Shown: positions 7,479 through 30,885 of the stretch, piece after piece | Layout of the letters: every line of letters starts with the position of its first letter | How positions within the stretch are numbered: position 1 is the first letter of the stretch | NCBI GenBank assembly: GCA_016932815.1 | Contig: JAFGCC010000024.1 | Location: 1-64,000 of the forward strand | DNA from: Microcaldota archaeon | GTDB lineage: Archaea; Micrarchaeota; Micrarchaeia; Anstonellales; Bilamarchaeaceae | Reading direction: 5' to 3' | Length of the DNA stretch: 64,000 nucleotides | Notes under the pieces: model-generated | What the model was told of the DNA's origin: nothing | Seen by the model: only the letters and a program-made list of their open reading frames with translations | The model's database searches: none | Position numbers and translations under genes: made by a program

Positions 7479-7589
7479 TATATAATAAAGTATAAGAAAA
7501 TACAAAAGAGTATTAGTAAGCATGAAAACACGTAAAGGGGGCGAAAAAAGATTGGGCAACTGCTAATTGGGGAATCCGGATGGTTCCCC

Positions 7590-7898: not shown

Positions 7899-7904
7899 CT
7901 AAAT

Positions 7905-9314: not shown

Positions 9315-9538
9315 GCAAACACCAATCGTATACCTATTTCAGAAAGGCACTTATATTTATAAATATGCCTTGGGCGGAAGCTTTGCCTCCCAGGCGGGAG
9401 AAGGGGCGGCTTCCGGTTGGGGTATCCCATAACTTTGCCGGGCTGCCCTGGCAGGCCTTGGGAAAATGGGCATGGGAGGCTCTAGGATAGGTGGCAGGGC
9501 GGGGGAATTCTTATAAATTGCGCATCATATGAACCTGC

Positions 9539-10162
9539 ATGGAAGTTCGCGCAATCATTCTTGCCGCGTTGTTCGCACTCTTGTGTGTTCCCTGTGCGCA
9601 TTCGCTTGTTTATTCAACCTTGGAGCTAACAGCACAAAGCGATTCCGGGGCCCCCATTGAAGGAGTGCATTTTTTCCTAGAGTGCAAGATGACTCTCTCA
9701 AGTGTTGAGAGGCATTTGTGCATTTCTAATTTAAGCGGGAGCTGCAAGAGCGCGTGCATGGATTGCGCAGGCGGGGAGCCGGCTTCCATACGCGCGCAAT
9801 ACGGGGAGGAGGAATCCACTTTTGAAATTCCCTCCTGGGCGGGAGAAGAGGCCTGCAAGGCGTACTATGAGCCGCTAAACTCCGTTGATGCGTTTGTTTT
9901 CGAGGTGCAGGGGGCCGTGTCCCCGCCCCCGGAAACCGAAGGGGAAGGGGCGCAGGAAAACCTCCCTGAGAATACGAACATAGAAACGCACGATTACCAC
10001 CTGGGGGAACTGGAAGATGAGGATTACGAATACACTTCATACCTTGATGAACTCGAAGAAGATGGGGAAGAAGATGATAAAGGCGGCACGTGCATCGGCG
10101 CATTCATCCTGCTTTGTGCATGCGCGGCATGCTTCTTTGCAGAAAGCAAGCGGATTGGGTAA
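9539..10162 (+). CDS. Exported Cys-rich, acidic, membrane-anchored protein
   Basis: A 207-residue predicted surface protein. A signal peptide (VRAIILAALFALLCVPCAHS) is followed by an ectodomain with about seven cysteines (CKM, CIS, CKSACMDC, CKAYY), probably disulfide-bonded. Next come a very acidic linker (residues ~150-185, runs of E and D) and a C-terminal transmembrane segment GAFILLCACAACFFAES. TTATAAAT lies ~24 nt before the ATG. It is not assignable to a known family. Confidence 0.6.
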   Translation: MEVRAIILAALFALLCVPCAHSLVYSTLELTAQSDSGAPIEGVHFFLECKMTLSSVERHLCISNLSGSCKSACMDCAGGEPASIRAQYGEEESTFEIPSWAGEEACKAYYEPLNSVDAFVFEVQGAVSPPPETEGEGAQENLPENTNIETHDYHLGELEDEDYEYTSYLDELEEDGEEDDKGGTCIGAFILLCACAACFFAESKRIG

Positions 10163-10257
10163 GCCTGCCAGGAAGTTCTTTTTTAATCCAATATGGTTTT
10201 CCCAGCCAGGAGGCCCGAGGTGTGCAAGTTATAAATACATCCAAGCACGAATCAATA

Positions 10258-16845: not shown

Positions 16846-17388
16846 ATGAAGAAGCGGAAAATAGTGCTTGCAATCACCGGCGCATCCGGGCTCCAGTACG
16901 GAGTGAGGCTAAACGAGGTGCTGCGGGAGGGAGGGCATGAAGTCATGCTAATTAGGGGTTCGGGCGCGGAGGCAGTCGCAAAGGAGGAAGGCGTGAAGCT
17001 CCCAAAATTTGATTTTGACTGCAAGGAAGTTGGCGCACCCCCCGCATCCGGCTCGCACAAGGTGGATGGGATGATAATTGCCCCCTGCTCCCTCAAAACT
17101 TTAGGGGAAATCGCATCCGGAGTGGGCGGGAACCTCGTTTCAAGGTCGGCGGAAGTCATGCTAAAAGAGAGGAGGAAGCTCGTATTGGTAGTGCGCGAAA
17201 CCCCCCTATCCTATATCGCAATAAAGAACATGGAGAAGATAACACTCGCCGGAGGGGTAATCCTTCCCGCGTGCCCCGGATTCTACTCAAAGCCCAAAAA
17301 GATTGGGGAGCTAATCGATTTTGTTTGCGGCAAAACCCTTGACCAGTTCGATATCGAACATGCCCTCTTTACAAGGTGGAAAAGCTAG
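16846..17388 (+). CDS. ubiX: UbiX-type flavin prenyltransferase
   Basis: A 180-residue enzyme that makes prenylated FMN, the cofactor of UbiD-family decarboxylases, from FMN and dimethylallyl phosphate. It shows the N-terminal FMN loop LAITGASGLQYGVRL, SGSHKVDGMIIAPCSLKTLG, LVVRETPLSYIAIKNM and a C-terminal RW ending, all typical of UbiX. The leaderless start ATG 16846 is 28 nt after TTTAAATT. It is divergent from isopentenyl phosphate kinase and 2.7 kb from the ubiD-like gene, as expected if it activates that decarboxylase. Its 3' end overlaps the next convergent gene by 20 nt. Confidence 0.93.
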   Translation: MKKRKIVLAITGASGLQYGVRLNEVLREGGHEVMLIRGSGAEAVAKEEGVKLPKFDFDCKEVGAPPASGSHKVDGMIIAPCSLKTLGEIASGVGGNLVSRSAEVMLKERRKLVLVVRETPLSYIAIKNMEKITLAGGVILPACPGFYSKPKKIGELIDFVCGKTLDQFDIEHALFTRWKS

Positions 17389-18475
17389 TTCCTTCGGGAG
17401 CGGGCGGCGCAAACTTCTTAGCGTCCTCGAAATCCGTTTCCGCAGCCCCTCTTGCCGTGTCCAGGTCCAGCGCGTTCTTGGTCTTGTCCCCGATTTTCTT
17501 TAGCGTTTTGCCTGTTTTATAGACCGTTTCAAGCTCCTTTCCCGCCTTGAGCGCATTGGTTGCCTCCATTACTCCCGCTTCGGAAGCTGAAGCAAGAGTT
17601 GCCGCAAATGCGGTTTCTGCTCCCGCAGTGCCCGTTTCCACCCCGGCTTCCGCAACGGCTATGCCCATCCTTCCCGCACTTGAAGTAGCGGAATATAACG
17701 CGCCAATACCCTTTAGCCCAAGGTCCACCGCCTTCGCAGCCGCCATGCCCGTAACAATCGTAATCGCAACGTCCGCTGCCAGAGCGGCAACCCGCTGCTC
17801 TATTTGCCCCATTGAATGGGTGTATGAATTGAGCACGTATAGGGAATCCTCAAGCTTCCCTGCAGACTCCTTAAGGCCATCCAGGGTCCCGCGAAGCTCC
17901 GCGGATTTCTGGTCCGCAAGATTCTGGTCGCCTTTGAGCATCGCCCCCACCATCTCGTTGAATGCAAAATAGGTCTTGGAGTATGCCTCGCGGAAAACCT
18001 GGATTGTGCCCTTCTTCCCTTCCTCGGTTGCGGCTTTCGGGTCGCCAACTACCTCCTTGTGCGCGGCATCCATTCCTTCAAAGAACTCCCTGCGCTCCTT
18101 GGTGAGGGTGACCACCACTTCCTTTGGGCTTGCAATCTTGTCGCTGAATATGGAGCCTACCGAGCCTATGATTCCAAAAACCTGCGCCGCGCCGGTTCCC
18201 GCATAAACAATGGCCTTGTCGGCAGTCCCGGGCATCTCCTTCATCGCGGCGGAGAATTCCTTTTCCATGCCCCCATAGGCTTTCCTAAGAGACTGCATGG
18301 AATCTAGCATCTGCTCCATTTCGGGCAGGTATTTTTCGGCAAAATCCCTTGCCTGCTCCACGTTTTCCCCGGAGATATAGTCTCCCTTGAATTCGTTTCT
18401 CTGGAGGGCCTGCATCGTTTCCACTGTTTTTGCAAGCTGCTTTTCTTCCTTGGATATGGGGGCCTTGTATGCCAT
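17369..18475 (-). CDS. Unknown helical protein with central hydrophobic stretch
   Basis: A 368-residue Ala-rich helical protein without a recognised domain. The first ~220 residues are charged helices (YLPEMEQMLDSMQSLRKAYG). A hydrophobic stretch VAALAADVAITIVTGMAAAKA then follows, with Gly/Ala-rich segments that could insert in a membrane or pack as a bundle. ATG 18475 has GAGGTGA 5 nt upstream, and 4 nt separate it from the stop of the upstream gene at 18480, so the two are translationally coupled. Confidence 0.55.
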   Translation of the reverse strand: MAYKAPISKEEKQLAKTVETMQALQRNEFKGDYISGENVEQARDFAEKYLPEMEQMLDSMQSLRKAYGGMEKEFSAAMKEMPGTADKAIVYAGTGAAQVFGIIGSVGSIFSDKIASPKEVVVTLTKERREFFEGMDAAHKEVVGDPKAATEEGKKGTIQVFREAYSKTYFAFNEMVGAMLKGDQNLADQKSAELRGTLDGLKESAGKLEDSLYVLNSYTHSMGQIEQRVAALAADVAITIVTGMAAAKAVDLGLKGIGALYSATSSAGRMGIAVAEAGVETGTAGAETAFAATLASASEAGVMEATNALKAGKELETVYKTGKTLKKIGDKTKNALDLDTARGAAETDFEDAKKFAPPAPEGTSFSTL

Positions 18476-18479
18476 TTTT

Positions 18480-19352
18480 TCACCTCTGCGAAGGGCCGGA
18501 AACGGCAAGGACCTTCCGTACCAGGGCATCAAGCGAAGCGTCCCCGCTTAGTTCTTTCATCTGCGATTGGATTGCCTTATGCAGGTAATCCGGGGTGTCT
18601 TTTGCCCACGCAACCGAGCGCATTGCGGATGCCGCAAGGTATTTTACGTTCCCGTCCATCTGCGCATCCTCTACGACTGCGGAGAGCGAGAGCGGGTCCG
18701 CCACCCGGATTAAATTCACGAGCGCCGCCTTTGCGCCGGAAGAGAGTTCCCGCTTCCTAAGCCCCACGGATACGTCTTCCACCGCCTTCTTCAGGTCCAG
18801 GCTCCCAGACTGCACAAGGCAAGCGCACACCATGTTCGCAAACGGGCCAACAAGCGAGCTTTCCCTGCTTGAGAAACCCGGAAAATGGAATGCGGATTTT
18901 GCGGCATCCATCCCCGCAATCATGTCAACTGCGGCGCGGAATCCCGCATGCCCGCATTTTGCAAACCCGTAAGCCAGGGATTGTATATAACTAAGCCTCT
19001 CAGGCTCCTTTTTCGCAATATCCCCCAGGCTCATGGAAAAATCGGTTGAGATGGTGGCGGAAGCGCGCATTAGCAATTCGTCCAGGGCGGGGTTCCCTGT
19101 CCCGAATCCCTCCTTGCCCCCGCTCGCCCCGTACTTGAAAATGAAGGCGTTTACAAGGTTGTATTTCTCCTCCACCGGGGCGCTCCCCTGGAGGAAATTG
19201 AAAACCGTCGGCGAGGCATCCTCCAGGGATTTGGTTTTTATCGCGTTTAGCGCTTCCTTCTGCCCCGCGGACTCAGCCTTGGGCGCCATGCCCGAAACTG
19301 CCTGCGGCGCCGCATCCTCCCTTGCCTTCCTTGGAACCATTCGCTCTGCCAT
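18480..19352 (-). CDS. Unknown helical protein, coupled to the following gene
   Basis: A 290-residue soluble helical protein with repeat-like helix pairs (SYIQSLAYGFAKCGHAGFRAAV, SGAKAALVNLIRVADPLSLSAVV, VKYLAASAMRSVAWA) suggesting an armadillo/HEAT-type solenoid. The N-terminal ~30 residues are disordered. It ends 4 nt before the ATG of the next helical protein, forming a two-gene operon; the pair may form a complex. No family recognised. Confidence 0.52.
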   Translation of the reverse strand: MAERMVPRKAREDAAPQAVSGMAPKAESAGQKEALNAIKTKSLEDASPTVFNFLQGSAPVEEKYNLVNAFIFKYGASGGKEGFGTGNPALDELLMRASATISTDFSMSLGDIAKKEPERLSYIQSLAYGFAKCGHAGFRAAVDMIAGMDAAKSAFHFPGFSSRESSLVGPFANMVCACLVQSGSLDLKKAVEDVSVGLRKRELSSGAKAALVNLIRVADPLSLSAVVEDAQMDGNVKYLAASAMRSVAWAKDTPDYLHKAIQSQMKELSGDASLDALVRKVLAVSGPSQR

Positions 19353-19977: not shown

Positions 19978-20070
19978 TTTTGCAGGCAGGGAACTTCGGA
20001 AGCGCAGGGCATTCTTGCCCGCATGTGCGCGCTAGAATCGTTTTAAAGCGTTTTGCAGAAGATACCACTT

Positions 20071-21363
20071 ATGAAGCCATTCCGTGAGTTTATAGGGGAG
20101 CTGGAAGCTTCCGGCGAGCTAAAGAGGATAGAGCAGCCAATGAAGAAGTATCTTGAGATGGCGGGGGTGTTCTCCGCTTTTGAGCCAACTGCTGTCCTAG
20201 GCTATGCGGAGGATTCTAGCATCCGCTGCGTTTCCAACGTGTTTTCCACAAAAGAGAGGGTTGCAAAATATTTAGGGTGCGAAGTGAAGGAACTGCGCAA
20301 GAGGATGTCCTATGCGGTGGATAATCCTTCAAAGCCAAAGAAGGCGAAGAATGCGCCGGTTTTGGAGGAAACCTCCGCCTCCCTGGAGGAACTGCCCGTT
20401 CCCACGCACACCAGCCGGGATGGGGGGCCATACATCTGCTCCGCAATAGTTATCGCAAAGGACCCGGAACTGGGGCAGAACTGCTCTTTCCACAGGATGA
20501 TGATTTTGGATGGGGAGCGCATAGTAATGCGCATACTCCCTAGGCACCTGCACAAATTCCTAGAGCGCGCAGACGGGGAGCTTGATGTTGCCGTAATAAT
20601 CGGGGCGCCCGTGAACGTGCTCCTTGCATCCGCGATTTCCTCCAAACTTGGGCAGAACGAGCTTGAGATTGCAAATACCCTAATGCCCTTTGAGACTACC
20701 GAGCTAATGAACGGGATTGAGATTCCCGCAGAGTGCGAATACGCATTCATTGCGCACATAAGCACAAAGGAGCGGGAAACCGAAGGCCCGTTTGTGGACC
20801 TGACTAATACCTACGATGGGACAAGGAAGCAGCCGGTCATGCGCGTAAAGAAAATATACCATAGGAGCAACCCCATCTTCCATGCGCTCCTCCCGGGGGG
20901 GCTTGAGCACAAAATCCTAATGGGAATGCCCAGGGAGCCCACGATTTTCAACGAAGTAAATGCGGTTGCAAAATGCAGGGGCGTAAACGTGACTCCGGGG
21001 GGATGCTCCTGGCTGCACGCGGTCGTTTCCATACAAAAGGAATCCGGGGAGGATGGGAAGAAGGCGATAGAAGCCGCATTCAGGGGGCACAAGTCCCTAA
21101 AGCACGTGGTAATAGTGGATGATGATATAGATGTCAATAATCCAATGGAAGTGGAATGGGCAATCGCAACGCGCTTCCAGGCTTCTGTTGATTTGGTTGT
21201 AAAGGAGAAAGAGCGCGGCTCCTCCCTGGACCCATCTGCCGACTGCGGAAGCGAGGAGGCAAGCGTAACTTCAAAGATGGGGCTTGATGCAACCAAGCCG
21301 CTTGAACGGGCAAAGGATTTTGAGAAGGTGGAATTCCTTGAAGTGAACAAGGATGATTACTGA
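20071..21363 (+). CDS. UbiD-family decarboxylase, probable anhydromevalonate phosphate decarboxylase
   Basis: A 430-residue UbiD-family enzyme using prenylated FMN. Family signs: MKPFREFIGELEASGELKRI at the N-terminus, PVPTHTSRDGGPYICSAIVIA, CSFHRMMILDGERIVMRI, then IPAECEYAF with EGPFVDLTNTYDG, which carry the acidic catalytic residues, and GRHK-type GHKSLKHVVIVDDDIDV. In archaea with the modified mevalonate pathway a UbiD homologue converts trans-anhydromevalonate 5-phosphate to isopentenyl phosphate. The nearby AcnX dehydratase, isopentenyl phosphate kinase and ubiX make that role the best guess over an aromatic-acid substrate. ATG 20071 is 27 nt after TTTTAAAG, supporting this start. Confidence 0.88.
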   Translation: MKPFREFIGELEASGELKRIEQPMKKYLEMAGVFSAFEPTAVLGYAEDSSIRCVSNVFSTKERVAKYLGCEVKELRKRMSYAVDNPSKPKKAKNAPVLEETSASLEELPVPTHTSRDGGPYICSAIVIAKDPELGQNCSFHRMMILDGERIVMRILPRHLHKFLERADGELDVAVIIGAPVNVLLASAISSKLGQNELEIANTLMPFETTELMNGIEIPAECEYAFIAHISTKERETEGPFVDLTNTYDGTRKQPVMRVKKIYHRSNPIFHALLPGGLEHKILMGMPREPTIFNEVNAVAKCRGVNVTPGGCSWLHAVVSIQKESGEDGKKAIEAAFRGHKSLKHVVIVDDDIDVNNPMEVEWAIATRFQASVDLVVKEKERGSSLDPSADCGSEEASVTSKMGLDATKPLERAKDFEKVEFLEVNKDDY

Positions 21364-21471
21364 CGCTGGGGGCAGAGCCCGGATGCCCGCAGAAAACACC
21401 CTGGGCGCAGGAGGCATCGCTGACATTGAAACCGGCGGGATTGTCCTTGCGCAGAATGCGGAGTTGTGCAA

Positions 21472-21855
21472 ATGATTGAGGAGTATTCCTTTGGGAGAAT
21501 CGTGATTTCCGGAAAGGAGTATTCCAACGACGTGATTTTGATTGGAGGGAAGGTCTATCCGGAATGGTGGAGGAGGAAAGGGCACTTTTTATCCAGGGAG
21601 GATTTGGGGCCGATACTCAAGGCGCAAATACGCACGCTCATTATCGGGAAGGGATACAACTCCGTTATGCGGATCGGGGAGGATGTGCGCGAATACTGCA
21701 GGGAGAAGGGAATTGAGCTAATTGAACTTGGAAGCAGGGAAGCTGTGGAAAAAGTGAATGAGCTAATGTGGGGGAAGCGCCATGCAACGAAAGATGATGC
21801 GGATTCCGCAAAACCCGCAAAGGGAATCGCCGCGGGAATCCACCTAACCTGCTAG
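21472..21855 (+). CDS. Mth938-like domain protein
   Basis: A 127-residue protein of the Mth938/NDUFAF3-like fold: IEEYSFGRIVISGKEYSNDV, KVYPEWWRRKGHFLSREDL, ILKAQIRTLIIGKGYNSVM, EYCREKGIELIELGSREAVE. Members are small, widespread and of unclear function. It follows the ubiD-like gene by 108 nt on the same strand, and its stop overlaps the end of the convergent sigma-like gene by 4 nt. Confidence 0.78.
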   Translation: MIEEYSFGRIVISGKEYSNDVILIGGKVYPEWWRRKGHFLSREDLGPILKAQIRTLIIGKGYNSVMRIGEDVREYCREKGIELIELGSREAVEKVNELMWGKRHATKDDADSAKPAKGIAAGIHLTC

Positions 21856-22766
21856 CTTGTTGAGTAGTGCTCAAAGAGTTCAAGGCATTCGCGGAGCTCC
21901 CCCGCATGCTCCGAAGTTGCAAGCTTCATGCGCGCCCTCCCGATTATCTTGGTGACCATCTGCCTGGAGACTCCGGCCTCCCTGGCTATCTCTTCATGCC
22001 TGCACCCCTCCTCTCCGAGAGTCATCATCAGCACGCTAAATTCCCTCGGAGTCAGGACTTCCCTGAAGATTTCCTCCATCCTCCCCCTTATAGAGCAGAG
22101 GTCAGAGTACTCATCCCCTACGGGACTAGAATGGGCCGCTCTGCCCATGCACATGCGGCGCGAGTCCTTTATCCCAAGCCTCCCGCATTCATCTGGTTCT
22201 GGGTCCTTTGCCGAATTGAAGTGGCCGTGGGCGCCCACGATGTTCCGGTTTATGTGGATTGCCTGCACCGCGCAAATGATGCTATCCGCCTGGCCTTCCG
22301 GGACTCCGCTTTCTATTAGGAAATCGCGGAAAAGTACGTTCGAATCCGCAGGGCGCATGCAAAAGAATTTCATTGCCTTGCCCATATTGCCCCTCTTAAC
22401 CTGCACCATGCTGTGCAGTTGGCGCACCCACCAGATGCACTCCTTTGCGCATTCTATTGCATAGGGGGCAAATTCCGAGCCCCTCCCGTCCCAGGAAGTT
22501 GCGGAATTAAAAAGCGAGCAGGCAACCAGGCTTTCCACATCGGGGCGCATATCCTTGCGCACTTTCCTATGAAGCCCATACTTCCTGCAAATCTCAGGTA
22601 CCAGGTGCATGTTCTCCCTTACCATATGCCAGGCTTCATCCGGAGCCCTTATGCGGCATTTTATGTCCCGGTCCAGCAGGGTGTAGCAATAGTTCCTTTT
22701 TGGGGGGCTTCTTGCGGTAATTGCACCACGGGATTCGCGCTTTGATTCAGATGCCGCCTGCCCCAT
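21852..22766 (-). CDS. Sigma-70-like protein, paralogue 1
   Basis: A 304-residue member of a seven-gene tandem family that reads like bacterial sigma-70 factors. Region 2 spans ~44-120: EAWHMVRENMHLVPEICRKY, then SLFNSATSWDGRGSEFAPYA, the position where sigma contacts the polymerase clamp, then ECAKECIWWVRQ, matching region 2.3/2.4 (which in bacteria reads YATWWIRQ). Region 3 is poorly conserved. Region 4 spans ~238-304, with HTH HEEIAREAGVSRQMVTKIIG. The C-terminal tail HAGELRECLELFEHY is shared across the family. It starts 22 nt after paralogue 2 stops and is probably the last gene of a three-gene operon. Function in an archaeon is unknown. Confidence 0.75.
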   Translation of the reverse strand: MGQAASESKRESRGAITARSPPKRNYCYTLLDRDIKCRIRAPDEAWHMVRENMHLVPEICRKYGLHRKVRKDMRPDVESLVACSLFNSATSWDGRGSEFAPYAIECAKECIWWVRQLHSMVQVKRGNMGKAMKFFCMRPADSNVLFRDFLIESGVPEGQADSIICAVQAIHINRNIVGAHGHFNSAKDPEPDECGRLGIKDSRRMCMGRAAHSSPVGDEYSDLCSIRGRMEEIFREVLTPREFSVLMMTLGEEGCRHEEIAREAGVSRQMVTKIIGRARMKLATSEHAGELRECLELFEHYSTS

Positions 22767-22788
22767 ACAATCAACCCAATCCGGATAA

Positions 22789-23727
22789 TCACTTCAAAGA
22801 ATAATGCATCAGAGTTTCAAGATGCTCCTTAAGCTCTTGTGCATAAGGGAACTTGGACAACTTCTTTAGCGCCAGGCCCTCCAAGTGGGAAACCCACTGG
22901 CAGCTAAGGCGCATCCTCTTTGCAACCTCTTCCTGCGAGAGGGGGTTTTCCCTTAGAATCCTGTAATTTAGGACCCTGTACTCCCGCTTGTTTAGGGCAG
23001 CCTTGAGGATTGCCCTCACCCTCCCAAGCGCATGCTCCATGTCCCTCCGTTCTTCCACTTCGCCCTGCAATTCCATCTTGTTCTCCACTAACCTGCAATT
23101 ATCTATGCAAACACAAGGGGTTACCCTGGGCCCGCGCACATCCTCTGGCGCGCATACCCCGTTGAATATCTCGTGCCCGTCTATTGGAAAGCGGTTGGAG
23201 AGCATTGCCATTTCCGCCTTCCTGAGGCTTCGCACCTCCCCTGCGGGGATTTTTTCTTCCTCAACAAACCTGGCAAAGCTGTATCCCGGTTTTTCCCCCC
23301 TATTCTTTAGGAGCCTGGCTACCCGCTCCTGGTTCTCGCGGGCAATTGTAACCGTGCCGCTTCGCAGCTGGACTGCCCAGTATATGCATTCTTTTGCGCA
23401 GGCAAATGCGAATGGGCGGAAGTTCTTCTTGCCATCCCATTTTATCGCGGTGCGGAATAGCGAATAGAACACGGTCATCTCCACGTCCTCCCTGTTTGCA
23501 GTTCCCGCTAGGATATCAAGGTTGTAGCCGCGGATTATTGCGGGAATTAGCTTCTTATTCTCAAGGGCGATGTTCCATGCCTCCGCATCCCCCCTTGCCC
23601 TGCAGCGAGGTTCCCCTTCCAGGATTGTGCTTTTTCTGGGGGGCTTGGGCTTCCTGCGGGATTTGCTCCTGCTTGTGCCCTCCGTATCCGAGTGGGGTTT
23701 TTTCAGGGTTGCAGCTGCCAGCCTCAT
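22789..23727 (-). CDS. Sigma-70-like protein, paralogue 2
   Basis: A 312-residue paralogue. It has a basic Pro-rich N-terminus, region 2 with SLFRTAIKWDGKKNFRPFA followed by ACAKECIYWAVQL, and a region-3-like helix pair PGYSFARFVEEEKIPAGEV. Region 4 (~245-312) begins LNKREYRVLNYRIL and carries HTH QEEVAKRMRLSCQWVSHLEG; the tail is YAQELKEHLETLMHYS. ATG 23727 has GGTG about 7 nt upstream and begins 12 nt after paralogue 3 stops, so it is translated from the same mRNA. The conserved Cys pair in region 2.4 is present. Confidence 0.75.
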   Translation of the reverse strand: MRLAAATLKKPHSDTEGTSRSKSRRKPKPPRKSTILEGEPRCRARGDAEAWNIALENKKLIPAIIRGYNLDILAGTANREDVEMTVFYSLFRTAIKWDGKKNFRPFAFACAKECIYWAVQLRSGTVTIARENQERVARLLKNRGEKPGYSFARFVEEEKIPAGEVRSLRKAEMAMLSNRFPIDGHEIFNGVCAPEDVRGPRVTPCVCIDNCRLVENKMELQGEVEERRDMEHALGRVRAILKAALNKREYRVLNYRILRENPLSQEEVAKRMRLSCQWVSHLEGLALKKLSKFPYAQELKEHLETLMHYSLK

Positions 23728-23739
23728 ATAAACACCAAC

Positions 23740-24687
23740 TCATTTCTGGGAATATGCGGCAAGCGTCTTCAGGTGCATCCTGAGTTCCTCTGCATAGACT
23801 GACTTAGCAAGCCTCGCAAGGGATTTCTTTTCTATGCCCTGCGCCCCTCCTGTGGAAACCCCGAACATCAGGCCTAGTTCCTTTAGCCCCATGGGCTCCC
23901 CGTCTTTGGTGCCAATCCCAAAGCGCAGGAGCAGGAGGTCGCAGTTGCGCTCGCCTAAAACTTCAAGGAAGATTTCCCTCATCCTATTCGAGATTGTAAC
24001 GGTGTCCAGCCCCTGCTCCGCCTGCATCCTAACGTCCAGGGGGTTATCCATCTCCAACTGCCATTCGGTGTGCCCCCGCTCTTCTTCCGGGCAATTCGGA
24101 GGGGACTTTTCAAAAGGCGAATGGCGCTCGAACAGCCCCTTGGTGCCGATAAGCACGATGATGGCGGAGCGCAGGCATTTTACTCCCTCATCCGTAAGCT
24201 CGTTTTCCTCTGCGAATTTCTCGATAGTGTATCCAGGATTCTTCCTCATCCGGTTTAGGAAGTTGTAGGCCTGCCTCCTGGTGCCCCAGGGGACGTGTAT
24301 CGTTCCCCGCAGCTCGTATGCCCATTGCTTGCACTGCTTGCCGCAGTTTACAGCAAAGGTGTGGTAAGAATATGCCTTGCTATCCCATTTGAGTGCGGAA
24401 AGATAAAGTGAATACAAGACGATTTTTTCCATGTCTTCTGAGTTGCGCATTTGCGCAATCGCGTTTAGGCCGTATTTGCAGAGTATGGGAATGATAAGGG
24501 AATCTGCCGCTTCCTGGGCAAGCCTCCACGCTTCAATCCCGCTCCTCCTCCTGGTTTTTACCTCTGCATCCAATATGCTGCCCCTAATTGGCGGCCTGCC
24601 CGATAGGGGGTTTGGAGGATTGGTTTTGCGGCTTTTTTCAGGCTGCCTTTCTGCCCTGGGAGCATGGAGCGCCCTCTCTCTTGCCAT
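23740..24687 (-). CDS. Sigma-70-like protein, paralogue 3 (clearest sigma match)
   Basis: A 315-residue paralogue with the fullest sigma layout. Region 2 (~52-130): SLYLSALKWDSKAYSYHTFA, then NCGKQCKQWAYEL. Region 3.0/3.1 (~128-180): GTIHVPWGTRRQAYNFL and PGYTIEKFAEENELTDEGV, closely following the bacterial pattern of IRVP...P-T-x-E-E-L-A-E-E. Region 4 (~230-310): EVLGERNCDLLLLRFGIGT, KDGEPMGLKELGLMFGVS, then AQGIEKKSLARL, matching the bacterial RFGL-DGEP-TLEE-G order including the glycine turn. First gene of the operon with paralogues 2 and 1. ATG 24687 is 29 nt downstream of TTTATAAA (24713-24720), an archaeal-type leaderless promoter. Confidence 0.82.
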   Translation of the reverse strand: MARERALHAPRAERQPEKSRKTNPPNPLSGRPPIRGSILDAEVKTRRRSGIEAWRLAQEAADSLIIPILCKYGLNAIAQMRNSEDMEKIVLYSLYLSALKWDSKAYSYHTFAVNCGKQCKQWAYELRGTIHVPWGTRRQAYNFLNRMRKNPGYTIEKFAEENELTDEGVKCLRSAIIVLIGTKGLFERHSPFEKSPPNCPEEERGHTEWQLEMDNPLDVRMQAEQGLDTVTISNRMREIFLEVLGERNCDLLLLRFGIGTKDGEPMGLKELGLMFGVSTGGAQGIEKKSLARLAKSVYAEELRMHLKTLAAYSQK

Positions 24688-24704
24688 ACTCTAAGATATT
24701 TTGT

Positions 24705-24724
24705 AGAAAATGTTTATAAATGGG
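24705..24724 (-). promoter_or_regulatory. Conserved TATA promoter box, paralogue 3
   Basis: The plus-strand block agaaaatgtttataaatggg contains TTTATAAA centred 29 nt before the ATG of paralogue 3. Nearly the same block precedes paralogues 4, 6 and 7 at the same distance. A GGGGG-TGTT-CCCCC hairpin (24722-24735) adjoins it on the upstream side. This is consistent with TBP-dependent leaderless transcription. Confidence 0.7.
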
Positions 24725-24755
24725 GGTGTTCCCCCTACAATCCGAAAATGCCCGG

Positions 24756-25787
24756 CTATTCAAGCATCTCAAGGAGCCCGCGGAGTTCCCCGGCGCACTC
24801 CGACCCGGAAATCCGTTCAAAAAGCTTGTCCAGCTGGTGGTTCACGGCCTGCTTGCTCCGCGATTTTCCATTCCTGGCAGGGAATGCCCTGCCAAGTTCC
24901 GCCAGCTCCATGGGCTCGGGATTGCCTTCTCCTATGCCATAGCGCATCAGGAGCAGCTCAAGCTCCTGCGGAGAGAGGACGCCTTCTAAGGCGGAAACCA
25001 GCCTCTCGCGGATGTGTCCCAAATCGGCTTCCTCCTCGGTTCTCCCGTGGAGGTCCAATGGATTATGGAACTCCAAATCCCGCAATCCCGCAGACTGCCT
25101 TTTCCAGCCGCTGCCCATATCCTCATCCAGCCCCCCGTTGAAAATCCTGCTGCCGTCTATGAATCTCTTGCGTGCATTCATGGAACGGATTGCCTTGCGG
25201 ATGTAGTCTAGGCCTTTCGCACCGATATCGTGTTCGCTTGCGAATTCCTCTACCGTATAGCCCGGCCTGCGCCTCCTGAGCGCGAAGAACTTCCTCGTTC
25301 TCCTAAGCGTGGTGCGGCCCACGCTGAACTCGCTGCCCAGCCTGGCAACCTGCACCTTGCAGCCGATTGCGGAGGCAATCGCATAGGTGGCAAAAGAGCC
25401 ATTTTCCTCCTTCCAGCCCAAAGCGGACTTGGCCAATGATAGTTCCACTATCTCCGTTACTTTAGGCCAGTCCTCGGGCCCAAGGCCCTTCTTTAGCCCA
25501 TACTTGTCGCAGATTACCCGGATTAGTCCCCGGTTTTCACCTACAATCTTCCACGCTTCGGCTTCGCTCCTCACGAGGCCATCTCCGGAGCCTCCCTGGG
25601 CAAGAGGGTTCTCTGTGGGAACAATCTTCCCCCTGCCCTTTGCAGGGGAGCATCCCGCAGGCTGTGCGGGCAAATCCTGCGCCACGCAAAGGGCGCGTCC
25701 TCCAAAGCCTCTTGGGGGTTTTGCGCAACGCGGAGCCGCCTTCTTGGGCTCCCGCTGCGGGGGCATGAGTTTTTCTGCGTGTGACAT
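24756..25787 (-). CDS. Sigma-70-like protein, paralogue 4
   Basis: A 343-residue paralogue with a long basic N-terminus (MPPQREPKKAAPRC, RALCVAQDLPAQP) almost duplicated in paralogue 7. Region 2: ENRGLIRVICDKYGLKKGLG, SLAKSALGWKEENGSFATYA, then IASAIGCKVQVARL; only the second of the two family cysteines is kept. Region 3: RRRPGYTVEEFASEHDIGAK. Region 4 (~271-343): LSPQELELLLMRYGIGEG, NPEPMELAELGRAFPARNG; the HTH turn carries a small insertion. Single-gene unit; ATG 25787 is 28 nt after TTTATAAA. Confidence 0.78.
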   Translation of the reverse strand: MSHAEKLMPPQREPKKAAPRCAKPPRGFGGRALCVAQDLPAQPAGCSPAKGRGKIVPTENPLAQGGSGDGLVRSEAEAWKIVGENRGLIRVICDKYGLKKGLGPEDWPKVTEIVELSLAKSALGWKEENGSFATYAIASAIGCKVQVARLGSEFSVGRTTLRRTRKFFALRRRRPGYTVEEFASEHDIGAKGLDYIRKAIRSMNARKRFIDGSRIFNGGLDEDMGSGWKRQSAGLRDLEFHNPLDLHGRTEEEADLGHIRERLVSALEGVLSPQELELLLMRYGIGEGNPEPMELAELGRAFPARNGKSRSKQAVNHQLDKLFERISGSECAGELRGLLEMLE

Positions 25788-25803
25788 GACAGTATTTGTT
25801 TGT

Positions 25804-25823
25804 ATAAAATGTTTATAAATGGG
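25804..25823 (-). promoter_or_regulatory. Conserved TATA promoter box, paralogue 4
   Basis: The block ataaaatgtttataaatggg carries TTTATAAA at 25812-25819, 28-29 nt before the ATG. It is followed on the plus strand by the same GGGGG-TGTT-CCCCC hairpin (25821-25834) seen at paralogue 3, so box and hairpin were duplicated together. Confidence 0.7.
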
Positions 25824-25856
25824 GGTGTTCCCCCTTTTCCCCTTCCTAGGCGCGGG

Positions 25857-26909
25857 CTACCGGAACGCTTCCATGCAGGAGCGCAGTTCCCCCGAATGCT
25901 CTCGCGACTTCCTCAGCCTCTCAAGGGCCATGGCATGCGTTTTGTGGGCAGATTGGGTGCTGATTCCAAGCCGGTTCCCAATCTCCTCAAATGTCAGGCC
26001 TTCTTCGAAGTGCATCCACATAATTTCAAACTGGCGCGGAGTTAAGGCGGCTTCCAGCACATCCCAGAGCCTCCCGGAAACGGATTCCTCCTTTCTGCTG
26101 CCAAACAGGAGTTCGGTATCCAGGGGATTGTGGAGTTCGCGCATTTGCGCGCTTTTTAGCCTGGAAGAAGCATTCCCGTTCCTTTCTTCCCCGTCCCCTT
26201 TTTTGGGGCCGCCTCCGTTGAAATCGCCATCCGCGCACTCTGGGCGGGCTATGGCGTTCGCAATTGCATGGTAGCGTGCCGCATCTTCCGCTTCCCCGAT
26301 GCCGATTCCTGCATCCCTTGAATACTCCTCAGGTGTGCCCTGGGGGTTTTGGAGCTTCCACTTGCCATATTTTTTTCCCTCATCGTATTTTTTCGAGGGC
26401 ATGGGCACTAATTCATAGGTTTCCCGCATGGGCCTCCAGCACCCCTTCATGCGGTTTTGGAGGTAGGTTGAGAACTTCTTCTCCCCAGTCCATGTGCGGG
26501 CCGCCTGGAATGCTTCGTCGATTCCAAGTGCAAAATAGTGCTCGCCGTGCGGGCTGTGGGGATATAACACCCTTGCCCTGCGCATTGCATAGAAAACGTC
26601 CTCGAGGTTATCCAGGACCAGTTTCCATGCCTCTTCATTGCTGCGGAGGATTTTTTCAGGGCTTATTTTCGAATACAATGACTGGCATTTCATCCTTCTT
26701 GTGCGTGAGCGTATCCCCTCTGCATCTGTGGGCATTTCTTCGGGCAGGTTGCGCGGCTTTACGCGCTGGGGAACGAGATACGGGTTGCCTCCGGTCAGGT
26801 TAATCTGTTCCTGCGCCGAATCGAGGAGGCGGCGGCCGGAGAATTTCGGGTTGAGGGCGCCCCAGGGGCGCATGTTCCTTTTCGCTTTGAGCGGTTTTTC
26901 TTTTTGCAT
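25857..26909 (-). CDS. Sigma-70-like protein, paralogue 5 (divergent)
   Basis: A 350-residue, most divergent member. Region 2 has EEAWKLVLDNLEDVFYAMRR, then DEAFQAARTWTGEKKFSTYL and NRMKGCWRPM, lacking the first family cysteine. A linker rich in G, D, N and K precedes region 4 (~289-350): LTPRQFEIMWMHFEEGLTFE, HTH FEEIGNRLGISTQSAHKTHA, and tail HSGELRSCMEAF. Its upstream region lacks the conserved box; a weaker TTTTTAAT element lies about 28 nt before the ATG. It is probably transcribed separately. Confidence 0.7.
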   Translation of the reverse strand: MQKEKPLKAKRNMRPWGALNPKFSGRRLLDSAQEQINLTGGNPYLVPQRVKPRNLPEEMPTDAEGIRSRTRRMKCQSLYSKISPEKILRSNEEAWKLVLDNLEDVFYAMRRARVLYPHSPHGEHYFALGIDEAFQAARTWTGEKKFSTYLQNRMKGCWRPMRETYELVPMPSKKYDEGKKYGKWKLQNPQGTPEEYSRDAGIGIGEAEDAARYHAIANAIARPECADGDFNGGGPKKGDGEERNGNASSRLKSAQMRELHNPLDTELLFGSRKEESVSGRLWDVLEAALTPRQFEIMWMHFEEGLTFEEIGNRLGISTQSAHKTHAMALERLRKSREHSGELRSCMEAFR

Positions 26910-27009
26910 AACCCATATTTATACATACATTACAATTAAAAAGCTTGTCACTACAAGCGGATAACTGTGGGAGAGGAAAAATCCGGGTTTCAGGCGCTTC
27001 CCATAAGGC

Positions 27010-27981
27010 TCAGCGCAGGCGTGAAGAGTATTGCGCAAGAGCCCCAAGGTGCTCCCTGAGCTCCCCTGCATAGATGGAGTTTGCAAGCTTCTCTTCCGAA
27101 TGCTTCCCTATGTTCTGGGCGCGGGCGCGGGAAATACCGAACATGGATGCAATCTCCGTATAGGTTCTCTCTTCGCCATCCTCTGTCCCAACGCCATAGT
27201 GCAACAGGAGTATCCTGGCATTGCGCTCCCCAAGCACTTCCACGGAGATTTCTTCCACCCTCTTAGCCACATTTCCCAAGTCCATCCGCATCTCCGAATG
27301 GGAATGGAGGTCGGCGGGATTGCAGAATGCGGCTTCGCCCCCGCGCGGCCTAGAAGGCCTGGAGAACTCACCCTCCTCCTCTGCGAACCCGCGGTTTTCC
27401 CCCGGAATCGCATCCATGCTCAATGGAAGGCTGTTTGCCCGTATTGCCAGCAGGGCGTAGCGCACACTCCGTGCCTTCTCCGCACTAAACTCCCGCTGTT
27501 CCGCGAACTCCCTGAAGGTAACTTCCGGATGCCGTGCCTTCATAGTAAGGAAATTGAATGCTTCTGTGGAATAGCCGGAATTAACCCAGATTTGGCTCTT
27601 TAGGAGGTTTACCCAGTATACGCACTCCCTGCCGCACTTTATTGCGTGCGTTGAAAACTCCCCCTTGCTCTTGTCCCAGGTCCGAGCGGAGTTGTAGAGA
27701 GAGTAAATCACTATCCTCTCCACGTCCGCCCTGTAGGATTTGTGCACTATCCTATCAAGATGGTATTTGTAGATTATCTGCCGGATTAGCTTCCTGCGCT
27801 CCTTGTCCAGGGCAATTTCCCAGGCTTCAGTCCCGGTATTCTGCGGATTCTTTATTCTCCTATCCAGGATGGTTTGCCGATGGTCGTCATTCGTCCCACG
27901 CATGGTAAGCGGCTTGAGGGCAGGGCTTTTCCTGGGATTATCCTTCAGGTTTGGGGCACGGAGTGCCTGCTGGAATGCCAT
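27010..27981 (-). CDS. Sigma-70-like protein, paralogue 6
   Basis: A 323-residue paralogue close to paralogue 3. Before region 2 is ILDRRIKNPQNTGTEAW. Region 2: SLYNSARTWDKSKGEFSTHA, then KCGRECVYWVNLL with both cysteines. Region 3: HPEVTFREFAEQREFSAEKA. Region 4 (~250-323): LGERNARILLLHYGVGTEDG, HTH YTEIASMFGISRARAQNIGK, tail YAGELREHLGALAQYS. ATG 27981 is chosen because TTTATAAA (28007-28014) lies 29-30 nt upstream; an upstream in-frame extension would run through the promoter. Confidence 0.8.
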   Translation of the reverse strand: MAFQQALRAPNLKDNPRKSPALKPLTMRGTNDDHRQTILDRRIKNPQNTGTEAWEIALDKERRKLIRQIIYKYHLDRIVHKSYRADVERIVIYSLYNSARTWDKSKGEFSTHAIKCGRECVYWVNLLKSQIWVNSGYSTEAFNFLTMKARHPEVTFREFAEQREFSAEKARSVRYALLAIRANSLPLSMDAIPGENRGFAEEEGEFSRPSRPRGGEAAFCNPADLHSHSEMRMDLGNVAKRVEEISVEVLGERNARILLLHYGVGTEDGEERTYTEIASMFGISRARAQNIGKHSEEKLANSIYAGELREHLGALAQYSSRLR

Positions 27982-27998
27982 AGTTTGATATATTTTGT

Positions 27999-28018
27999 AG
28001 AAAATGTTTATAAATGGG
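27999..28018 (-). promoter_or_regulatory. Conserved TATA promoter box, paralogue 6
   Basis: The block agaaaatgtttataaatggg is identical to that of paralogue 3 over these 20 bases, with TTTATAAA at 28007-28014. The adjoining hairpin seen at paralogues 3 and 4 is replaced by a different GC-rich sequence. Confidence 0.7.
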
Positions 28019-28050
28019 CGAGGTTTTCCCGCTCGATGCGGCAACCAACA

Positions 28051-29046
28051 CTAATTCCCGGGGCACTTCGCAAGCAGTTTGAGGTGCTCCCTGAGCTCCC
28101 CGGCGTATCTGCACCCTGAGAGTACGGAAGATGCCTCGCCAACCATCTGCTTTACCCTCTGCTTGCTAACGCCCATGATTCCCCCTATCTGCTCAAAAGT
28201 CAGCCCGGAACCGTCATCCGGAACCAGGTCGCAGGTGGATTCATTCTCCACCCCAAAATGGAGCAGCATCGCCATGCGCTTCCTCTCATCTAGCACCTCT
28301 TTGAGGATTTCCCCCAGCCGGGATTTCGCCCACATTATCTCGCCTGCCCGGGAAGGCGTGGAGTGGAACGCTCCCGGCTGCACCCTGAGCGCCCTGGAGA
28401 GATGGCCGGCCTCCGGCAGCCACTTTTTTGTGCCATCGAATATTGCATTTGCGCCAATCATTTCCCTGCCCCTGCGGGAGACTGCAGCCAGGGCTTTCCT
28501 GAGCAGGGCTTCGCTTTTTCCGGAGATGCCCTTATCCTCAATGAATTGGCTAAATTCATAACCCGCCTTCCGCCTCCGGGCCTTGAAATATGCCCCCAGC
28601 CCCTGGTAGGTCCTTGCGCTTATCGAAGGGTCATTTAGGCGGCATACGTGCCCTATGCACTCTATTGCGCAGGCAAGGGCATACGTCCTAAAAGACGCAA
28701 CGCCCCCTTCCTTCCACGCATAAGCGGAATTCAGGATTGAACACATCACTATCGTCCGCACCTCGCCCTGAAGCGACTTCTCCACCATGGAAAACAGCTT
28801 GTATTTGTTGATTGCCCTTGGGATTAGCCATTCCTTGTGCAGGCTAAGGAGTGCCTCGGCTCCTTCCCTGCTTCTCTGGGGATTGGAAATTTTCCTGTCA
28901 AAGAGGCTCTTTAGCCTCGGCTGCGCAGGCGAATCCTGCACCGCGCAAAGGGCGCGCTTTCCAAATCCCCTCGTAGGCCCCGCCTTCCTGGCGCGTGCCT
29001 TTTTGGGCCCCCTCTGCGGAGGCATGGATGTTTCTGCGTGGTGCAT
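28051..29046 (-). CDS. Sigma-70-like protein, paralogue 7
   Basis: A 331-residue first member of the array. The N-terminus (MPPQRGPKKARAR, RALCAVQDSPAQP) nearly repeats paralogue 4. Region 2: SILNSAYAWKEGGVASFRTY followed by ACAIECIGHVCRL (both cysteines). Region 3: RRRKAGYEFSQFIEDKGISG. Region 4 (~252-331) has an insertion before HTH FEQIGGIMGVSKQRVKQMVG; tail YAGELREHLKLLAKC. ATG 29046 is 28-29 nt after TTTATAAA (29071-29078). It is divergent from the phosphomevalonate dehydratase operon. Confidence 0.78.
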   Translation of the reverse strand: MHHAETSMPPQRGPKKARARKAGPTRGFGKRALCAVQDSPAQPRLKSLFDRKISNPQRSREGAEALLSLHKEWLIPRAINKYKLFSMVEKSLQGEVRTIVMCSILNSAYAWKEGGVASFRTYALACAIECIGHVCRLNDPSISARTYQGLGAYFKARRRKAGYEFSQFIEDKGISGKSEALLRKALAAVSRRGREMIGANAIFDGTKKWLPEAGHLSRALRVQPGAFHSTPSRAGEIMWAKSRLGEILKEVLDERKRMAMLLHFGVENESTCDLVPDDGSGLTFEQIGGIMGVSKQRVKQMVGEASSVLSGCRYAGELREHLKLLAKCPGN

Positions 29047-29062
29047 AAAGGTAGTTATTTGC

Positions 29063-29082
29063 AGAAAATGTTTATAAATGAT
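29063..29082 (-). promoter_or_regulatory. Conserved TATA promoter box, paralogue 7
   Basis: The block agaaaatgtttataaatgat carries TTTATAAA at 29071-29078, the same spacing to the ATG as in paralogues 3, 4 and 6. Conservation stops just past the TATA element. Confidence 0.68.
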
Positions 29083-29185
29083 GCACGATTGATGCCAAAA
29101 AGCCACAAAACGGCGATTGCACGATTGCCCGCACAATAGATATTTAAATTAAGAAAGGGGTATCTTGGATGCAAGGTGGATTCTC

Positions 29186-30427
29186 TTGGAACTAACCCGC
29201 GATGAAGAAGCGATGCTGCATGGAAAATACGGGGGGGCAAAGCAGAAGGCGATGGAGATACTCCTTGCGCTGGGAAAAATATACGGCGCATCCCGCATGA
29301 TTAAGGTTACTTCCGCGCAGATTGCGGGGGTATCTTATAAGACGATTGGGGATGCTGGGCTCGAATACCTAAAGCACATGGCGGCTTTGGGGGGGAGGGT
29401 GGAAATCCCTTCGTTTTTGAATCCGGCTGGGATGGATACCGAGCAATGGGAGGAGCTTGGGGTGCCGGAGGATTTTGCGAAAAAGCAAATTGAGATTCTG
29501 GATGCGTATTCAACTATGGGAATTTCCACTACGTGCACCTGCACCCCGTATTTGTGCGGGATACGGCCTGCGGAGGGCGAGCACGTTGCGTGGAGCGAGA
29601 GTTCCGCGGTTTCCTTTGCAAACTCGGTTTTGGGTGCCCGTACCAACCGGGAAGGAGGGCCTTCGGCTTTGTGCGCCGCTTTGTGCGGGGCAACGCCCCT
29701 ATACGGGCTGCATTTGGAAGAAAACCGGGTAGCCAGGCTCATTGTGCGCGTGGAGGGGAAGCTGGAAAATCGGGCGGATTACGGGCTTTTGGGGCTGCTT
29801 GTGGGAAGGGAGGCAAAAGGGAGGATACCTGCGTTTATTTTCGGTGAAAATACCCGCGGGGCGGGGGGAGGTTGCCCCAAAACGGAAGAAGGATGCGGGG
29901 CGGGCTGCCCGAAGCATTCAATAAGCGAGAGCAAGCTCAAGTACCTGGGTGCTGCAATGGCGGCATCCGGCTCGGTTCCACTTTATTTCGTAAAGGGGGT
30001 TACGCCCGAATGGAGGGTGGATGAAGGTGCGGAGGAGATTGTTGTTTCGCAGGGGCAGATTATGGAATTGAAGGCGAAGCTCAATGAGGCTGATGAGGCG
30101 GACCTGATTACGGTCGGGTGCCCGCACGCATCGATAGAAGAGCTAGAAGAGATTGCACAACTGCTTGAGCGCAAACCCGTAAAAAAGCCGTTTTGGATAT
30201 GCCTTGGGCGCTCGGTGAAAAAGGAGGCGCAGGATTGCGGGATTGCAGAAAGGATTGAGCGCGGGGGCGGGAAGCTGGTTGCGGATACGTGCATGGTCGT
30301 TTCTCCCTTGGAGGAGATGGGCTTTTCAAAAACCGCGATTGATTCCGGGAAGGCATCGGTTTACCTGCCCACCATGTGCAAGCAGAAACTGCTCTTTGGA
30401 AAACTGGAGGAAATCTTATGGAAATGA
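29186..30427 (+). CDS. Phosphomevalonate dehydratase large subunit (aconitase X)
   Basis: A ~413-residue aconitase-X catalytic subunit. With the small subunit it dehydrates (R)-5-phosphomevalonate to trans-anhydromevalonate 5-phosphate using an iron-sulfur cluster, the first special step of the modified archaeal mevalonate pathway. Motifs: SAQIAGVSYKTIGDAGLEYL, FLNPAGMD, TCTCTPYLCGIRPAEGEHVA, SSAVSFANSVLGARTNREGG, LITVGCPHASIEELEEIA and a late DTCMVVSP; the Cys in CTCTPY, GCPH and TCMVV are the likely cluster ligands. TTG 29186 follows AGGTGGA by 6 nt; TATTTAAA at 29141-29148 is the promoter. TTG 29165 would start before the expected transcript start. Confidence 0.9.
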   Translation: MELTRDEEAMLHGKYGGAKQKAMEILLALGKIYGASRMIKVTSAQIAGVSYKTIGDAGLEYLKHMAALGGRVEIPSFLNPAGMDTEQWEELGVPEDFAKKQIEILDAYSTMGISTTCTCTPYLCGIRPAEGEHVAWSESSAVSFANSVLGARTNREGGPSALCAALCGATPLYGLHLEENRVARLIVRVEGKLENRADYGLLGLLVGREAKGRIPAFIFGENTRGAGGGCPKTEEGCGAGCPKHSISESKLKYLGAAMAASGSVPLYFVKGVTPEWRVDEGAEEIVVSQGQIMELKAKLNEADEADLITVGCPHASIEELEEIAQLLERKPVKKPFWICLGRSVKKEAQDCGIAERIERGGGKLVADTCMVVSPLEEMGFSKTAIDSGKASVYLPTMCKQKLLFGKLEEILWK

Positions 30428-30885
30428 GCAACGCCTCTTCTGGAAGCATGAAAGAGGACATTCTAAGGGACATGGGAACAAGGGGACTGGGAATAAAGGC
30501 AAGGGGAATCTCCAAAGGGATTGGGAGGGGAAAAATACTAATCAGCAGGGAGCCACTATCTTTCCTGGGCGGGGTGGATGCCAAAACCGGAATCGTGCTT
30601 GAAAAGGGGCATCCCCTAGAAGGCAAATGCGTAAAGGGAAGCGTGCTGGTATTCCCGCGCGGAAAAGGCTCGACCGTTGGCTCGTATGTGATGCTGGGGC
30701 TAAAACAGAATGGGGTTGCCCCATCCGCAATTATAAACCTGGAAGCCGAAACGATTATCGCAGTCGGCGCAATCATCTCCGAAATCCCGATGGTGGACAA
30801 GCCGGAAGAAGACGTTTTTTCCATCCTAGAAGAAGGAATGGAAGCGGAAGTGGACGGGGAGAAAGGGGAAATAATCCTCCTCTGA
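30418..30885 (+). CDS. Phosphomevalonate dehydratase small subunit (DUF126)
   Basis: A ~155-residue small subunit of the aconitase-X type dehydratase (swivelling DUF126 domain). Visible: ARGISKGIGRGKILISREPL, GVDAKTGIVLEKGHPLEGKC, VFPRGKGSTVGSYVMLGLKQ and AETIIAVGAIISEIPMVD; the serine of KGSTVGSY is the substrate-binding residue expected in this family. ATG 30418 overlaps the end of the large-subunit gene by 10 nt (later ATG codons exist at 30424 and 30448), so the two are co-transcribed and translationally coupled. Confidence 0.9.
   Translation: MEMSNASSGSMKEDILRDMGTRGLGIKARGISKGIGRGKILISREPLSFLGGVDAKTGIVLEKGHPLEGKCVKGSVLVFPRGKGSTVGSYVMLGLKQNGVAPSAIINLEAETIIAVGAIISEIPMVDKPEEDVFSILEEGMEAEVDGEKGEIILL

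Follow-up and report, generated by a model that had tools for sequence, protein, structure and literature searches.

Introduction

Why does an archaeon carry seven consecutive genes that resemble those of bacterial sigma factors, and could their products still act in transcription initiation? The same problem is solved by sigma factors and by TFB/TFIIB, which share either no ancestry or a very remote one, and we know of no archaeon that has been shown to use sigma factors. Sigma-70 genes have been reported in DPANN genomes (mainly Woesearchaeota) with ordinary TBP/TFB, mis-binning being excluded (Castelle et al. 2021, PMC8204110); that work describes the presence of such genes, and their likeness to the array treated here is one by description. 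Haloarchaea possess lineage-specific multiple TFB/TBP sets, for which a role resembling that of alternative sigma factors has been proposed (PMC3404096); these are likewise multiplied initiation factors, but native archaeal ones from another protein family. Here we analyze a 64,000-nucleotide window from a Microcaldota archaeon (contig JAFGCC010000024.1, positions 1 to 64,000), in which an earlier note had recognized seven sigma-70-like genes on one strand.

Sigma-70 Family Membership of the Array

The array consists of seven consecutive minus-strand ORFs (p1 to p7, positions 21852-29046; 304-350 aa) without internal stops (Table 1). Profile and fold searches placed them in the sigma-70 family, in agreement with the first reading; judged from these sequence and model comparisons, the seven genes, all intact, are very probably diverged paralogues produced by expansion of this family. 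For p6 and p7, the ATG starts that follow the common upstream element described below are preferred, and longer TTG starts (28044 and 29136, respectively) are less likely.

Table 1. Features of the array and its surroundings (window positions).
Feature	Position	Strand	Description	Evidence or remark
UbiD	20053..21363	+	UbiD-family decarboxylase, probably anhydromevalonate-phosphate decarboxylase	TIGR00148 328.9 bits; synteny; left boundary of insertion
DUF498	21466..21855	+	DUF498 (Mth938-like)	Within same gap in most same-genus genomes
p1	21852..22766	-	304 aa, sigma-70-like paralogue	Sigma70_r4 28.1 bits; TIGR02937 32.9 bits over 47-283
p2	22789..23727	-	312 aa, sigma-70-like paralogue	Sigma70_r4 28.2; TIGR02937 41.5 bits; AF2 fold search finds sigma factors
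p3	23740..24687	-	315 aa, sigma-70-like paralogue	Sigma70_r4 22.6 bits (just below cut-off); RpoD/SigB C-terminal models
p3 element	24700..24721	-	22-bp element ATTTATAAACATTTTCTACAAA	
p3 inverted repeat	24712..24735	-	GGGGGAACACCCCC, running into p3 TATA element	24 bp identical to 25811-25834
p4	24756..25787	-	343 aa, sigma-70-like paralogue	No Pfam match; RpoD_Cterm E 0.009 only; end-to-end alignment with family
p4 element	25799..25820	-	Common upstream element	
p4 inverted repeat	25811..25834	-	Second copy, inverted repeat and TATA	
p5	25857..26909	-	350 aa, most diverged	Sigma70_r4 39.3; TIGR02937 43.7 bits (above curated cut-off); AF2 fold search topped by sigma factors
p6	27010..27981	-	323 aa, sigma-70-like paralogue, ATG start	Sigma70_r4 27.1 bits
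p6 element	27994..28015	-	Common upstream element	
p7	28051..29046	-	331 aa, sigma-70-like paralogue, ATG start	Sigma70_r4 26.2 bits
p7 element	29058..29079	-	Common upstream element	
AcnX large	29165..30427	+	AcnX large subunit, probably phosphomevalonate dehydratase	PF04412 E 1e-151; divergent right boundary
AcnX small	30430..30885	+	AcnX small (swivel) subunit	PF01989

A region-4 helix-turn-helix had been claimed for all seven proteins. The family profile covers it in each of them, and Pfam Sigma70_r4 exceeds its gathering score in five (p1, p2, p5, p6, and p7), but p3 falls just below (22.6 versus 24.1 bits) and p4 has no Pfam match. The NCBIfam model TIGR02937, which spans regions 2 to 4, passes its cut-off of 42.9 bits in p5, comes near it in p2, is weaker in p1, p3, p6, and p7, and is absent in p4.

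The region-2-like block previously seen in each protein was recovered by family profile and fold search, although Pfam Sigma70_r2 had no match in the genome scan or in any single paralogue; TIGR02937 in p5 excepted, region 2 is detectable by family profile and not from single array members. Close relatives outside the array do exceed the 24-bit threshold of Sigma70_r2 (L038, 25.1 bits; L033, 25.6 bits). A profile built from the seven alone matched B. subtilis SigA at E 2.9e-11 over residues 126-371, collinearly through regions 2 to 4, and a profile of 19 sequences (the seven plus relatives) reached E 5.1e-32. The AF2 models for p2 and p5 have mean pLDDT values of 79.9 and 72.0. When each was compared with the PDB, sigma factors made up all 50 matches listed; the whole-chain TM scores were low (0.19-0.31, normalized to query length), which is the expected outcome if the individual domains do not adopt their RNAP-bound arrangement. 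The concern that a region-2 fold might be absent was thus answered by family profile and fold search, and a generic HTH regulator with sigma likeness limited to region 4 was rejected because the similarity runs collinearly through region 2.

Region 3 is the weakest part. The spacer aligns with regions 3.0-3.2, as had been suggested for several of the proteins, but mean pairwise identity among the seven is 18%, and Pfam Sigma70_r3 matched none of the array proteins. In the alignment, the region 2-3-4 order is retained in all seven.

In a tree, six of the seven paralogues grouped together (96/96) and p5 was unplaced; a single clade of seven was not rejected. The N-terminal tails of p4 and p7 share 58% identity, compared with 28% in the body. 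The N-terminal tails of the array proteins are basic and probably disordered.

The array resembles bacterial sigma-70 (SigA/RpoD; SigB and FliA of group 3) in its collinear regions 2, 3 (weakly), and 4, and sigma factors are its best PDB matches by profile and by fold. It differs in lying within an archaeal genome with TBP/TFB, in having seven copies in a row, in its hypervariable recognition helix, and in the lack of any region 1 match. ECF sigma factors are small two-domain promoter-specificity factors that also go without a conserved W-dyad. They join regions 2 and 4 by a short linker, whereas the array proteins keep, by alignment, a poorly conserved region-3 spacer and a sigma-3.2-like linker.

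Genomic Context and Distribution

The array is inserted between two mevalonate-pathway genes, UbiD and AcnX, which adjoin directly in sister genera. This gap is filled by sigma-like genes in five genomes of the genus, with a species-specific content of 7, at least 3, 2, and 2 genes as well as proteins of ~1,000 aa. Relatives of 993 and 1031 aa at the same locus carry ~7 extra region-4-like repeats beside a single sigma-like module, which is incomplete in the 993-aa protein; other relatives are 594- and 716-aa forms with an N-terminal repeat domain. A scan of the genome collection with a narrower family alignment placed the genus in Ca. Micrarchaeota. The full-length family (E<=1e-20) occurs in 9 of 301 genomes of this phylum. 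Five of these come from this genus, which is represented by six genomes, and three of the other four belong to sister genera. This distribution upholds the proposal of a lineage-specific expansion.

Sigma-70 is a bacterial family and the genome is a 25-contig draft, features that would suit a mis-binned bacterial contig or a chimeric assembly. Archaeal genes, however, flank the array on both sides within one contig (UbiD/AcnX, Hjc, and an archaeal GltX), and the genome holds one TFB and one TBP elsewhere, confirming the presumed archaeal source. The contamination estimate is 0.12%, the array has the base composition of its neighbors, and the same arrangement recurs in other genomes of the genus. 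This shared synteny rules out mis-binning, to which we assign a negligible probability, and settles the earlier question of a mixed contig. Nor is the array a recent import, a view already taken from its composition and now joined by saturated synonymous divergence between paralogues and by the conserved locus.

A fixed locus whose content and copy number are species-specific, together with very high divergence of the paralogues and their basic, probably disordered tails, could also reflect a conflict or interaction system. Here, the proteins would be fast-changing decoys or hijackers of the transcription of a virus, a plasmid, or a partner cell, the archaeon being probably symbiotic. We consider this unlikely, given that tblastn with p2 gave no phage relative, phage sigma profiles match only weakly, an informal look brought no secretion gene to notice, and the neighbors are housekeeping genes. 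Anti-initiation decoys, as the earlier note had envisaged, found no direct support.

Upstream Elements

A 22-bp element containing an archaeal TATA box is present in exact form upstream of p3, p4, p6, and p7, and no further copy with up to three mismatches was found elsewhere in the 1.25 Mb genome. A wider search for the TATA element returned one more near-match, located before a gene read by eye as a tRNA 2'-O-methyltransferase, which looks like an ordinary TATA promoter. Upstream of p3 and p4, an inverted repeat is predicted to form a hairpin whose stability is not clearly above that of shuffles, so we make no terminator claim. The one common TATA element at four genes suggests that p3, p4, p6, and p7 are probably switched on together. 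By sequence, the promoters of the array genes themselves look like ordinary TBP-type TATA promoters, and consequently no promoter was seen to need a sigma-like factor.

Conservation of Putative Functional Residues

The equivalents of W433/W434, involved in -10 melting, are lost in all seven proteins and replaced by A/E/N/K and C/S/R. Equivalents of Q406 and E407, which are among the best-known clamp contacts, are kept in none, and the D403 position is mostly acidic (Asp in p1, p2, p3, and p6; Glu in p7). Region 2 of the array carries an invariant Cys at position 438, a further difference from bacterial sigma-70.

In region 4, exposed positions of the recognition helix share 15% identity, below the 34% mean for the region (p 0.0036 by permutation), and identity rises to 62% in the C-terminal segment that matches E. 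coli 603-611 (p 0.0014), in a test designed post hoc with the alignment already seen. Positions 606 (E) and 607 (L) are invariant across the seven. This contrast between a variable helix and a conserved C-terminus was not seen in relatives outside the array. In bacteria, the C-terminal face of region 4 contacts the RNAP flap, and our assignment of regions to RNAP contacts derives from knowledge of bacterial sigma factors.

Within conserved codons, fourfold-degenerate sites have diverged almost to saturation, the C-terminal 40 codons included (for example, the same at 5/13, 2/7, and 6/9). As synonymous sites are saturated, the conserved C-terminus points to selection at the protein level, and recent gene conversion as the source of the conserved ends is disfavored, although p4 and p7 are closer in their N-terminal tails than in their bodies. 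High divergence and unequal retention of sigma residues might instead indicate decaying tandem duplicates without present function; against this stand seven intact reading frames, residues that are invariant despite the synonymous saturation, and an upstream element exact in four copies, which make decay very improbable.

Proposed Role

A sigma-70-family protein has very probably expanded within this one genus of Micrarchaeota, and the expansion has long been maintained. We propose that each paralogue is a promoter-specificity factor, and we give this overall explanation an even chance of being right. Diversified promoter-specificity factors are favored by the variable recognition helix, the conserved C-terminal face, and the common 22-bp element. 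In this scheme, all seven would use the conserved C-terminal face of region 4 to dock on a common partner, for which the RNA polymerase flap is the likeliest candidate, and their divergent recognition helices would read different upstream DNA. Region 2 may bind the polymerase clamp or the promoter, although it lacks the tryptophan wedge of classical sigma factors. With W433/W434 and Q406/E407 absent, a sigma-like mechanism with the archaeal RNAP is our inference, and we rate promoter specificity through polymerase docking slightly below an even chance. The clamp itself is not the same in archaea and bacteria.

A serious rival is that the proteins are sigma-derived DNA-binding regulators and no longer initiation factors, which is quite possible if short of probable. 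In this reading, a sigma-4 HTH with a sigma-2 remnant would bind particular promoters and activate or repress TBP/TFB-dependent transcription, including that of the array or the flanking mevalonate genes. Loss of the promoter-melting tryptophans and clamp residues agrees with such regulators, as do the standard TATA promoters upstream of the array genes; the 993/1031-aa and 594/716-aa relatives are also more readily understood as proteins that bind DNA at several sites than as subunits of a polymerase. On the other hand, the strongest region-4 conservation lies on the presumed polymerase-facing C-terminus and not on the DNA-reading side, and the full region 2-3-4 order has been kept seven times. 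Promoter-specificity factors may also be cast more boldly, as hybrid initiation in which basal TBP/TFB would coexist with seven sigma factors docking on the archaeal RNAP at separate promoter classes, the set being rewritten per species at one hotspot; this we advance only tentatively.

The tandem array, the conserved genomic hotspot, and the ~8 region-4 modules per protein appear to be new, as we found no report of them. A sigma-type family has been kept, multiplied, and diversified within an archaeal genus, such that the DNA-reading surface varies and the presumed polymerase-facing surface is conserved. The architectures in sister species, with many region-4 modules per protein, are informative on the reuse of sigma domains, and the array provides concrete proteins for testing whether an archaeal RNA polymerase works with sigma-type subunits.

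Identity of the array

Seven successive reading frames of 304–350 codons occupy the minus strand at 21852–29046, as the earlier note described, and p1, the first of them (p1 to p7), shares 25–34% identity with the other members, identifying them as paralogues. A profile built from the seven alone matched Bacillus subtilis SigA at E 2.9e-11, the alignment running collinearly from region 2 up to the C-terminal end, and with twelve relatives added the match to SigA/RpoD reached 5e-32. The proposed region-4 HTH exceeded the Pfam cut-off in five of the seven and fell slightly under it in p3, but p4 had no region-4 match in Pfam. The region-2-like block was supported by the family profile, although the Pfam region-2 model matched none of the paralogues searched singly. 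The cut-off of TIGR02937, a sigma-70 superfamily model spanning regions 2 to 4, was exceeded by p5, the most diverged paralogue, and nearly reached by p2. All 50 PDB matches listed for the AlphaFold2 models of p2 and p5 were sigma factors; as the domains have no fixed placement with respect to one another, whole-chain TM scores were low, and these matches speak for local agreement only. The profile and fold comparisons, suggested earlier as a check, place sigma similarity from region 2 to the C-terminus, and the array is almost certainly an expansion within the sigma-70 family.

Conservation of the locus

The array separates UbiD from AcnX, presumably components of the archaeal modified mevalonate pathway, whose substrate assignment we infer. 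In six sister-genus genomes (G013, G021, G024, G022, G037, G047), UbiD directly adjoins AcnX (spacing at most ~25 bases, or a slight overlap), and on sister-genus contigs of sufficient length the downstream order AcnX-small, Hjc, helicase, GltX is that of the window. Within the window's genus, by contrast, sigma-like genes fill this gap, always opposed in orientation to the mevalonate genes and in most genomes accompanied by a DUF498 gene. Seven are present in the window's genome (G000) and, up to the contig end, at least three in G001; G002 and G003 have two each, those of G003 encoding 594 and 1031 aa in a gap without a match to DUF498, while G005 carries a 993-aa protein and a 370-aa repeat protein. 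Unrelated genes occupy the gap in G012 and G017, other family members; G011, of another genus, has two more canonical sigma-70 genes near the mevalonate cluster.

At full length (E ≤ 1e-20), the family occurs in 9 of the phylum's 301 genomes. Five are among the six genomes of the window's genus, three represent sister genera with a single copy each, and the ninth, from elsewhere in the order, has a weaker member. The proposed lineage-specific expansion therefore held, and the locus, kept across the genus, marks the array as a retained lineage feature. Sigma-like genes at the same locus in other genomes of the genus rule out contamination, and archaeal Hjc, archaeal-type GltX, UbiD and AcnX genes on the contig likewise argue against mixed organisms.

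Sigma-like and associated genes outside the array (L numbers, loci in related genomes)
Feature	Location	Strand	Remarks
Multi-region-4 protein, 1031 aa	L033:7996-11088	+	Same genus and locus; full sigma-like module, then ~7 more region-4-like repeats
Multi-region-4 protein, 993 aa	L041:5730-8708	-	Same genus and locus; partial sigma-like module, then ~7 more region-4-like repeats
N-terminal repeat domain ahead of sigma-like module	L032:192-2339	-	
N-terminal repeat domain ahead of sigma-like module	L033:6278-8059	+	
Same repeat domain, stand-alone 370-aa gene	L041:8844-9953	-	
Single sigma-like gene and TrmB-type regulator	L034:6507-7289 and 7348-8385		Divergent neighbours; sister genus
Single sigma-like gene and TrmB-type regulator	L035:8441-9319 and 9302-10168		Divergent neighbours; second sister genus
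Two tandem, more canonical sigma-70 genes	L047:6231-8855	-	Another genus of the family; adjoin mevalonate-pathway cluster; larger gene (7338-8855) above cut-off for Pfam regions 2, 3 and 4

The repeat domain is helical-looking (motif 'L.eeL...A......gi.sr..l......LY..L.kRgl') and has no Pfam match. The sigma-like genes beside TrmB-type regulators possibly form functional pairs with them. Two adjacent window genes at 17369–19352 (387 and 290 aa), neither with an NCBIfam match, are kept at the same place in L041.

Sigma-like genes have reportedly been seen in archaeal single-cell genomes. Sigma-70 genes in DPANN archaea are already on record (Castelle et al. 2021, PMC8204110); searches of a largely open-access literature brought up no description of an array in tandem, of a hotspot or of a multi-region-4 protein.

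Upstream elements and proposed function

Between paralogues, the fourfold-degenerate sites of conserved codons have diverged almost to saturation, which makes the duplications old. A 22-bp element, ATTTATAAACATTTTNTNCAAA, nevertheless lies ~12 bases upstream of the ATG of p3, p4, p6 and p7, exact in all four places (chance expectation in the window, 0.01) and with no further genomic copy at up to three mismatches; such non-coding identity points to selection or local copying. The element includes a TATA box ~25 nt ahead of the ATG, a spacing like that of leaderless archaeal genes. Identical GGGGGAACACCCCC inverted repeats (24722–24735 and 25821–25834) immediately precede the TATA element of p3/p4.

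The window's genome, 91.5% complete and thus possibly holding further copies, encodes one TFB (two cyclin repeats) and one TBP. The main rival reading, a serious though less likely one, is that the paralogues are sigma-derived DNA-binding regulators working on TBP/TFB promoters, and the multi-region-4 proteins found in sister species speak for it. A conflict or partner-directed role would fit the species-specific content of the locus and appears improbable. Equivalents of sigma-70 W433/W434 and Q406/E407 are lost in the array, and bacterial-style promoter melting or clamp holding therefore cannot be assumed.

Residues 603–611 of E. coli sigma-70 lie within the flap-binding part of region 4 in bacteria. 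The aligned C-terminal segment is 62% identical among the seven, with E and L invariant (permutation p 0.0014 within region 4), whereas exposed recognition-helix residues are just 15% identical (p 0.0036), a contrast absent from relatives outside the array. Both tests were chosen post hoc from the alignment, with positions taken from sigma-70 structures, and are thus suggestive rather than formal. Each paralogue may combine a shared polymerase-side surface with a private DNA-reading surface. As such surfaces are expected of alternative promoter-specificity factors, we tentatively favour, at somewhat under an even chance, the reading that the seven would constitute a set of them.
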